64,000 nucleotides of DNA from IMG/VR virus record IMGVR_UViG_3300047157_000137, positions 1-64,000 of that record. One strand, given 5' to 3'. This DNA comes from a virus. The position numbers and the translations under genes are program-made. The notes beneath the pieces were generated by a model. The model was not told where the DNA came from, made no database searches, and saw only the letters and a list, made by a program, of their open reading frames with translations. Positions 19,020 through 25,038 of this stretch are shown here, one piece after another; within the stretch, counting starts at the first letter, position 1; each line of letters starts with the position of its first letter.

Positions 19020-19787
19020 CTACAGGTAGTCAAGCACTTGCGAGTGATCTACGTTATCAATTAGTTTATCTACAGCTTGTTTTTTAAGCTCTGAAACACG
19101 TACATAAGCACTGCTTCCTTCGATCTTTAAAATGTCTGCAATTTTATTAGCCGAATGTTTTTCACAGTCTAATCCATAGCTTAATCTTAAGACCTCATAT
19201 TCTTTTTCGTTTAAATGAGTTTTTAATAAACCAGTTAAATAAACGTTTAATAAACCTATATTATAAGGCTCTGATTTATCTGCAATTTGATAGATCATAG
19301 ACTCTTCATCATCTGCATGTTTGGGTTTGTCATCAATAGATAAAAACATACTATTAAAAAACATAGCAACCATCTTTTGATCTTTACCGTTGTTTTTGCG
19401 TATTTCATTAAGTTTGTGCTCAGGTATTCTTATGTCTCCTCTGTTTGTATCAACAGCACGTCTTATGCCACCTTTAATACGTTTAGATAAAAATGATTTT
19501 AATGTTTTTTCTTGATCGTTTGATTCACCTAATCTTACCCAGTCTATTTTTCTAATAGCTTTAGTTAAGCTTAAATTACCTTCTTGTATAAGATCATTAA
19601 TACTCATTACACCTGATGCTTGTTGTGTTGTAGAAAATTTACGAGCTATGTTTTCTACTAAAAGCATAAACTTCCATTGCAATTGTTCTTGACTTAAATA
19701 TTGAATATCAATATCCTCTATCTTTTTTAATTGTATTAACAAATCATTTTTATAACGAATATAGTTAGGTATATTATATTTTTTCAT
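19020..19787 (-). CDS. phage-encoded sigma-70 family factor
   Basis: The 255-residue protein has sigma region 2 features (DLIQEGNLSLTKAIRKIDW, the core-binding helix, then KRIKGGIRRAVD, the DNA-melting/-10 helix) and region 4 features near the C-terminus (LNEKEYEVLRLSYGLD, SANKIADILK, a helix-turn-helix for the -35 box). Region 3 is degenerate and carries an insert, and region 1.1 is missing. It should redirect host RNA polymerase to phage promoters. It overlaps the end of the upstream helix-turn-helix gene by 14 nt. The promoter class it reads is not known from sequence. Confidence 0.85.
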   Translation of the reverse strand: MKKYNIPNYIRYKNDLLIQLKKIEDIDIQYLSQEQLQWKFMLLVENIARKFSTTQQASGVMSINDLIQEGNLSLTKAIRKIDWVRLGESNDQEKTLKSFLSKRIKGGIRRAVDTNRGDIRIPEHKLNEIRKNNGKDQKMVAMFFNSMFLSIDDKPKHADDEESMIYQIADKSEPYNIGLLNVYLTGLLKTHLNEKEYEVLRLSYGLDCEKHSANKIADILKIEGSSAYVRVSELKKQAVDKLIDNVDHSQVLDYL

Positions 19788-23395: not shown

Positions 23396-23414
23396 ATTTA
23401 ATTATTAATGTTAG

Positions 23415-23487
23415 TTGCGGCGGATAGATTCGAACTACCGACCTTCGGGTTATGAGCCCGACGAGCTGACCACTGCTCCACGCCGCA
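23415..23487 (-). tRNA. tRNA-Met (CAT)
   Basis: A complete cloverleaf fits: acceptor TGCGGCG/CGCCGCA (7 pairs), D stem GAGC/GCTC with GTGG loop, anticodon stem TCGGG/CCCGA with loop CTCATAA (anticodon CAT), T stem GGTAG/CTATC with loop TTCGAAT, and discriminator A. The CCA end is not encoded. The T1-A72 pair is normal, so it is more like an elongator than an initiator; lysidine-type Ile cannot be excluded. It lies in the small-gene region of the early arm. Confidence 0.93.
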
Positions 23488-24227: not shown

Positions 24228-24259
24228 TATTATCCGTGTTAATTTGTATTTAGTTTGTA
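24228..24259 (-). promoter_or_regulatory. 32-bp early promoter-like element, copy 2
   Basis: It has box 1 TACAAACTAAATAC, 10 variable bases, then GGATAATA on the minus strand; the ATG of the next gene follows at 24222. Box 1 overlaps the last codons of the upstream gene. Confidence 0.72.
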
Positions 24260-24477
24260 AGTTCGTGTGCTTCAAATCTTTGTCTTTCTTTGTCTATTAT
24301 ATCACCAATGTGATCTTGCATTGCTACAATATCCATCGCTAATAGTTGTAGTTCAGCTAAACCATTAACTTCATGAACACTCATGTATTCATTTAAGTCA
24401 TTGTTTTGAAGAGCGATAACACAGTCTTCTAAATCTCTTGCAGTATTTTCAAACCTGCAATAACTCATATTTGCCAT
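24250..24477 (-). CDS. small conserved phage protein (MANMSYCRFENT family)
   Basis: The 75-residue protein has the recognisable start MANMSYCRFENTARDLEDC, found in small phage proteins of unknown function. The rest is acidic and helical (ELQLLAMDIVAMQDHIGDIIDKERQRFE). It lies about 20 nt downstream of the structured RNA at 24498-24781 and ends inside promoter-like element 2. Confidence 0.68.
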   Translation of the reverse strand: MANMSYCRFENTARDLEDCVIALQNNDLNEYMSVHEVNGLAELQLLAMDIVAMQDHIGDIIDKERQRFEAHELTN

Positions 24478-24497
24478 ATTTAATTATTTAATGTTAG

Positions 24498-24781
24498 TGG
24501 AAGTGGGCGGAGTCGAACCGCCGTTATCTTAATCAGTTGTTTGCCATAAGCTATTCGGTGCGTTACTGTTTCAAGATCTTACCTTATCACTCCCTTATGA
24601 GAGACACCAGTTGTGGACAGGTAGTTAACTAGTATTATCATTTATCCACACTTTCTGTTTTGACGCACCACGATCGAGCTAATGCCCCGGTAATCGCCTA
24701 ACGTGACCTGTATGCCGCCGTCTCTCTGCCAGCTATTCACTTATGTGTAAGTTAGTGTGACGCAATATGTAATACACTTCC
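24498..24781 (-). ncRNA. structured tmRNA-sized RNA with tRNA-like ends
   Basis: The 284-nt span lacks a credible ORF. Its 3' end is a perfect T arm (GGCGG-TTCGACT-CCGCC) plus CACTTCC and discriminator A. The 5' end GGAAGTG (24781-24775) pairs with CACTTCC over seven bases. Further perfect complements lie inside: CATAAG/CTTATG (24740-24745 with 24545-24550), GAGAGAC/GTCTCTC (24720-24726 with 24599-24605), GGTGCGT/ACGCACC (24663-24669 with 24557-24563) and TGTGGA/TCCACA (24645-24650 with 24612-24617). The third and fourth helices named here interlock as a pseudoknot. Size, tRNA-like closure and pseudoknot fit a divergent tmRNA, but the usual 5' TTCGAC motif and a clear tag ORF were not found. 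The identity stays open. Confidence 0.55.
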
Positions 24782-24849
24782 TGGTTCGGCACCACATACA
24801 TATATTGTCTCCTATTTCTTACCTGTTAAGCTACTCGTCTGGCTACTTT

Positions 24850-25038
24850 TTACTTTCTACGCCAAGATCTGTGAACTCTGTCACTTAGTTCTTGACTTAC
24901 TATTTGTACTTCTAGTACTTGTTTGTTTGCAATAATAGGAATATAACTATATTGCTTTGTTTCGCTACAGTTTACACAGGTTGAATAACCTAGTGCTAGT
25001 CTGCCTGCTGGTATTTTATTGTTACATTTACATTTCAT
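24850..25038 (-). CDS. small zinc-ribbon protein
   Basis: The 62-residue protein begins MKCKCNNKIPAGRLALGYSTCVNCSETK, with CxC and CxxC pairs (Cys3, Cys5, Cys21, Cys24) forming a likely zinc ribbon, followed by a helical tail. Small zinc-finger proteins of this pattern are common in phages. It follows promoter-like element 3 (ATG 12 nt after its GG) and precedes the structured RNA. Confidence 0.68.
   Translation of the reverse strand: MKCKCNNKIPAGRLALGYSTCVNCSETKQYSYIPIIANKQVLEVQIVSQELSDRVHRSWRRK

Follow-up and report, generated by a model that had tools for sequence, protein, structure and literature searches.

The window, the 64,000-nt stretch analysed here, comprises positions 1–64,000 of IMG/VR virus record IMGVR_UViG_3300047157_000137 (69,680 bases). 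The virus is a phage of flavobacteria, whose terminase shares 61% identity with its counterpart in the unclassified podovirus MW202828 and 44% with the terminase of Flavobacterium phage elemo; terminase matches were also found in Cellulophaga, Tenacibaculum and Maribacter phages. On the minus strand, an array of structured, gene-free RNA lies between two co-directional small genes (24850–25038 and 24250–24477). It is composed of three abutting modules, termed A, B and C, each with its own closing helix, and begins 6 nt after the stop codon of the upstream gene. The features of the locus are as follows.

24850–25038, minus strand: upstream gene, 62-aa cysteine-containing protein without a Pfam match
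24728–24843, minus strand: module A, 54 copies with covariation; fold z -2.4
24600–24725, minus strand: module B, 29 copies with covariation, including a pseudoknot
24498–24594, minus strand: module C, 97-nt tRNA-like end, assigned as a CDS-less tmRNA (tRNA-like domain only)
24250–24477, minus strand: downstream gene, 75 aa, phrog_8760
23414–23487, minus strand: ordinary tRNA-Met, found by ARAGORN and Rfam

When relatives are compared in register the order A-B-C is kept, with one or another module absent in some phages, and in several of them a tRNA-Met lies directly 3' of module C. At gathering thresholds, ARAGORN and Rfam reported nothing in the whole window besides the tRNA-Met at 23414–23487. 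The Bacteroidetes -7 promoter motif occurred at chance level. A scan for promoters and terminators gave nothing decisive, and its ‘terminator’ at 24506–24522 corresponds to the opposite strand of the T arm. The window also encodes a 255-aa protein (19020–19787, minus strand) with weak, below-cut-off matches to sigma-70 regions 2 and 4, which is possibly a phage sigma factor.

An initial annotation had described this region as a single ORF-free RNA of 284 nt with tRNA-like ends, closed by pairing of CACTTCC with a distant GGAAGTG and enclosing a pseudoknot. The span indeed contains no minus-strand ORF of at least 40 aa.

Module C adopts the fold of the tmRNA tRNA-like domain

The elements of module C, all on the minus strand, are listed below.

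24594–24588 with 24505–24499, minus strand: acceptor stem, GGGAGTG with CACTTCC, containing a G3-U70 wobble
24587–24578, minus strand: D region, ATAAGGTAAG
24577–24571 with 24532–24526, minus strand: helix P2, ATCTTGA with TTAAGAT, which covaries; followed by the linker AAC
24522–24506, minus strand: T arm, followed by the 3' strand of the acceptor and A73 at 24498
24495–24497, minus strand: CTA trailer, directly after A73, where the CCA end would lie

The perfect T arm of the initial annotation is present (GGCGG-TTCGACT-CCGCC, then CACTTCC and A73, on the minus strand of 24498–24522). The topology is that of the tRNA-like domain of tmRNA: a 7-bp acceptor, a D region mostly of 10 nt and bearing GG, P2, a short linker and the T arm. 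The minimum-energy fold of 24498–24594 is exactly this structure, near acceptor partner included (z -2.6). Module C has neither a D stem nor an anticodon arm, which places it outside the tRNA family (RF00005), and ARAGORN finds no tRNA here. It also has no tag reading frame or mRNA-like domain, as just a variable hairpin lies between the D region and the T arm. A full standard tmRNA holds tag frame and pseudoknots in one molecule, whereas here the only pseudoknot, that of module B, lies outside the closed domain.

Conservation was assessed in related phages over 90 distinct C copies, a set from which full tmRNAs, one real tRNA and one fused copy had been excluded. All seven acceptor pairs are formed in every copy, with five forms at pair 4 (C-G, A-U, G-C, U-A or G-U) and variation on both sides at pairs 1 and 5. 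The T-stem pairs are likewise formed in 90/90, four to five types occurring at pairs 2 and 3. P2 reaches at least 5 bp in 74% of the copies, compared with 11.5% when strands are mixed between copies; 43 different stems were seen, and the P2 interior is swapped wholesale between relatives. The alanine signature is retained, with G3-U70 in 87 and A73 in 87 of the 90 copies, that of the window included. The sequence ACTA (A73 plus the CTA trailer) is found in 81/90. A genomic Bacteroidetes tmRNA (L208) is likewise without an encoded CCA, ending in CCACTT with CTT in the CCA place.

These data bear on the closure at 284 nt. GGAAGTG is present at 24775–24781 and is an exact 7-bp complement to the acceptor. 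However, Rfam and folding pair the acceptor with GGGAGTG at 24588–24594, and this near partner pairs in every relative copy. The distant exact complement occurs in 4 of the 20 copies with a CACTTCC acceptor and in 0 of the 61 with other acceptors, and because it is not kept in relatives, while the near strand pairs in all 90, the 284-nt closure was rejected. With the proper partner in place, the G-U at acceptor pair 3 that had been reported missing is the G3-U70 wobble, and the alanine determinant is present. GGAAGTG is instead part of an insert motif, GGAAGTGTATT, whose position differs among relatives; in the window this motif (AGGAAGTGTATT, 24771–24782, minus strand) lies within module A, and it recurs in relatives and is not an acceptor strand. 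Folded as one unit, the whole 301-nt span does not outperform shuffles (z -0.46). A tag-bearing full tmRNA was also rejected, since the interior changes wholesale from one relative to the next and contains no conserved frame. The exact complement in the window is what speaks for one 284-nt divergent tmRNA with an unrecognised tag, and given the behaviour of the relatives we regard such a molecule as extremely improbable.

Homology of module C to tmRNA

A permissive Rfam search returned one strong match, to tmRNA RF00023 (24594–24495, 35.7 bits, E 8e-13), which reaches both model ends (1–374) with nearly the whole interior skipped. The tmRNA search proposed in the initial annotation therefore does give a match over C, but not over 284 nt, and at a score below the RF00023 gathering cut-off of 47. 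This score is insufficient alone to prove identity, because a true tRNA-Ala used as control reaches 39.9 bits against the tmRNA model (72.2 against the tRNA model); the identity is supplied by the C family. Three of its copies (L050, L058 and L076) score 64.7–64.9 bits against RF00023, end to end, with the mRNA/pseudoknot domain missing. Moreover, the best-scoring copies have a D region, ACCTGGTTTTGACG, similar to the one in a tmRNA from a Bacteroidetes MAG, ACTGGTTTTGACAG, and the Rfam models call the C copies tmRNA rather than tRNA, whereas a real tRNA-Ala is called tRNA.

Since its best members, at 65 bits, lie over the RF00023 cut-off and the mRNA/pseudoknot domain is missing, module C is, as judged from sequence, a CDS-less (tag-less) phage tmRNA reduced to the tRNA-like domain, and a new variant among such RNAs. 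The earlier suggestion of a divergent phage tmRNA or tRNA mimic holds for the last 97 nt, which are a tmRNA tRNA-like domain, and fails for a 284-nt tmRNA with an internal pseudoknot.

G3-U70 and A73 are common to tRNA-Ala as well, and the attP sites of phages can contain 3' fragments of tRNA or tmRNA genes. A tRNA-Ala gene remnant or an attachment site for integration would nevertheless not account for covariation of both acceptor strands, P2 and the T arm over 90 copies, for the missing D stem and anticodon arm, or for the preference of C for the Rfam tmRNA model where a real tRNA shows the reverse. This origin is highly unlikely and was rejected on the covariation and the model comparison.

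Modules A and B and the exchange of hairpins

Modules A and B contain the following elements.

Module B, minus strand: closing helix, AGAGAC/GTCTCT
Module B, minus strand: H-type pseudoknot, CAGGT/ACCTG (24706–24710 with 24618–24622) and GTGGA/TCCAC (24645–24649 with 24613–24617)
Module B, minus strand: variable hairpin between CGTTAG and AAACAG
Module A, minus strand: closing helix, GCCAG/CTGGC (24843–24839 with 24732–24728)
Module A, minus strand: second helix, GCTTA/TAAGT
Module A, minus strand, 24746–24825: exchangeable nested insert

In module B pairing within the crossing helices reaches 100% of cells across 29 sequences, and the covariation score of the structure was matched by 0 of 500 shuffles. 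Counted over the 29 copies irrespective of kinship, the pair formed by alignment columns 16/173 is U-A (16 copies) or A-U (13), that of columns 144/178 is U-A (19) or C-G (10), and that of columns 145/177 is G-C (27) or A-U (2). On this evidence the crossing helices of the initial annotation are real, yet they form part of the separate module B and not of the tRNA-like RNA. For module A, 54 copies were found, and 44 distinct rows were aligned. With kinship again ignored, its closing helix takes several compensated forms, and the second helix changes from C-G to G-C in six copies, with no copy showing a one-sided change. The strands AGTA/GAA beside this helix would presumably suit a bulged-G (loop E) motif. 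Covariation in homologues, put forward earlier as a check, is thus seen within modules A, B and C, and it refutes the 284-nt closure.

No Rfam match to A or B was obtained among 4227 models; in the window stretch, hits up to E 10 were to tmRNA-type models over C alone, and at 12 other loci searched up to E 0.1 there was nothing apart from tRNA and tmRNA. The module A motif was not found in bacterial genomes. Modules A and B look like undescribed structured RNA modules. They are independently folding RNA parts that share the region with C and carry exchangeable hairpins: the hairpin inserts of A, B and C have 222 14-nt words in common across module types, compared with none in shuffles, and the window A insert contains two recurrent motifs, one of them with GGAAGTG.

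The gene slot and its occupants in related phages

Relatives were collected from IMG/VR by a scan with the 25-nt T arm plus acceptor, which gave 21 contigs, and by five further pattern scans that gave many more; the sample consists of metagenomic contigs with some redundancy. All 85 C-bearing loci encode homologues of window proteins, most commonly the upstream 62-aa protein (65/85). When 39 loci were sampled via this protein rather than via the RNA, 20 had a C-type or F-type element within 900 nt (18 standard C and two of type F, described below), the remaining loci having different modules or none. The tRNA-like element therefore occupies a fixed slot but is itself accessory. The modules were absent from the stretches examined, in some cases partial, of phi38:1, Calle_1, Panino, elemo, phi18:3 and MW202828, and blastn against known phages returned one coding match in the downstream gene and short tRNA-end matches, and nothing else. 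Among bacterial genomes, matches to the 3' end of module C were confined to three MAGs (four contigs); judged by their neighbouring sequence, these contigs appear to be of phage origin.

Other tRNA-like elements were also observed. Type E (19 copies; L028, L038, L043, L049, L051, L056, L058, L059, L068, L072, L076, L078 and others) has the acceptor AACTAG/CTAGTT, a 3' part CTACCGACGGGTATGAGG-TTCGAAT-CCTCA-CTAGTTAC and a variable hairpin inside; it is not of alanine type and is unreported by ARAGORN and Rfam. Type F (L075, L232 and L233) has the acceptor GAACATA/TATGTTC and occupies the same slot as C. A tRNA-like element of ∼50 nt with acceptor and T arm, lacking the P2 hairpin, lies at about 1680–1735 of L249, directly 3' of the stop of the conserved upstream gene. 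A tandem pair of tag-less tmRNAs (L019:79–260) has A3-U70 in place of G3-U70 in its first member.

Other tmRNAs occur in phages too. Maribacter phage Panino (PP540027; L122:27590–27732) has a permuted tmRNA inside a tRNA array (RF04321, 63.9 bits, cut-off 47), the match covering only the tRNA-domain part of the model. Cellulophaga phage Calle_1 has a full-size tmRNA (L125:27951–28312, 86.6 bits) that ends A-CTA like module C; the coordinates in the deposited record seem to be displaced by about 50 nt. Phage tmRNA-like RNAs of 376–389 nt with an encoded CCA were found in L006, L187, L188, L195 and L197, and in L006 the last 25 nt are identical to those of the window copy.

The position of the array, 6 nt past a stop codon between co-directional genes, would suit RNA-processing punctuation: RNase P and tRNA 3'-processing enzymes, drawn by the tRNA-like element, would cleave a polycistronic transcript, and A and B would stabilise the upstream mRNA as its 3' ends. 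The positional conservation of the CTA trailer and the occupation of the same slot by the non-alanine types E and F agree with this. However, punctuation needs neither the conserved G3-U70 and A73 nor a tmRNA-type D region, and ordinary tRNAs, which these phages also carry, would suffice; we consider it a minor possibility.

Accessory presence and the fast exchange of hairpins and modules would also fit an arms race, in which defence proteins able to recognise tRNA, tmRNA or other RNA are bound by C, perhaps also by A and B, and so kept away from their targets. Candidates of this kind exist in CoCoNuT systems, whose SmpB-like domains are predicted to bind tmRNA (PMC11090510). Such decoying of defence proteins would, however, not obviously require an alanine-charging signature, and in this analysis neither these phages nor their hosts were linked to a defence system; it seems somewhat less probable still.

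A candidate decoy of ribosome rescue

The structure of module C, its homology to the tmRNA tRNA-like domain, the conservation of the alanine signature, the modularity of the array and the common gene slot are what the analysis shows; transcription, processing, charging, SmpB binding and a benefit to the phage are what we infer beyond them. The reading that we modestly favour is that the phage makes an alanine-chargeable decoy, module C, that engages SmpB and EF-Tu and perturbs trans-translation. Because C is homologous to the tmRNA tRNA-like domain, it is predicted to undergo processing, CCA tailing and alanylation and to associate with SmpB and EF-Tu. A compact RNA would be made from the intergenic slot, its last module being a tmRNA reduced to the tRNA-like domain; host tRNA machinery would excise C and add CCA, and G3-U70 and A73 would direct charging with alanine. 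The charged C could then be bound by SmpB and EF-Tu, and having no tag frame it would leave trans-translation incomplete, either titrating SmpB or entering a stalled ribosome, where it would serve as a dead-end or tag-less acceptor. As a result, fewer incomplete phage proteins and mRNAs would be subject to tagging and decay in the host. In this way the array RNA may let the virus interfere with host ribosome rescue.

SmpB titration would not require G3-U70, and this counts against the decoy reading. The fixation of G3-U70 in an otherwise drifting acceptor suggests that charging matters, and hence ribosome entry rather than mere titration. A C or F-type element is present in only about half of the relatives sampled, so any benefit of C would be conditional. 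The decoy model accounts for C and not for A and B.

A more tentative proposal, which we would put forward only as a possibility, takes in the whole region. The locus would be a recombining cassette array of RNA parts, comprising a tag-less alanine-type tmRNA, other tRNA-like forms and at least two undescribed RNAs (A and B) that swap hairpins, acting jointly against host ribosome rescue or translation-linked defences as the RNA counterpart of a protein anti-defence island. The modular exchange is itself a case of RNA domains being shuffled in a viral hotspot, and modules A and B, if confirmed, are new structured RNA families. That the alanine signature is kept while the rest drifts makes it testable whether phages sabotage or rewire trans-translation.

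Comparison with known RNAs

Like GOLLD, ROOL and other large structured RNAs, some of which come from phages, the modules described here are structured and non-coding. However, no Rfam match to those RNAs was obtained from the array, and its modules are interchangeable and roughly 50–190 nt each. Module C shares with the standard tmRNA (RF00023) the acceptor with G3-U70, A73, the GG-bearing D region, P2 and the T arm, but misses about 300 model positions and has neither the tag frame nor pseudoknots PK1–PK4. The tag frame is absent from mitochondrial and permuted CDS-less tmRNAs (RF02544, RF04321) as it is from C. In C, by contrast with permuted RF04321, the gene order is standard, and RF04321 scores just 16.6 bits on the window.

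CDS-less forms are very rare in the curated tmRNA database, where nine of standard order and 72 permuted are found among 97,179 entries (PMC11915505); here ninety distinct copies occur in one phage group. The tmRNA of mycobacteriophage DS6A consists of little beyond the tRNA-like domain, and a molecule similar to it, chargeable or not, strongly inhibited tmRNA, perhaps via SmpB titration (PMC4131195, PMC11915505). By its published description, the DS6A RNA is like module C a tRNA-like domain without tag frame and pseudoknots (PMC4131195, PMC11915505). Module C differs from it in coming from flavobacterial podoviruses in about 90 diverse copies, in carrying large exchangeable hairpins on P2, and in sitting in an array with other RNA modules.
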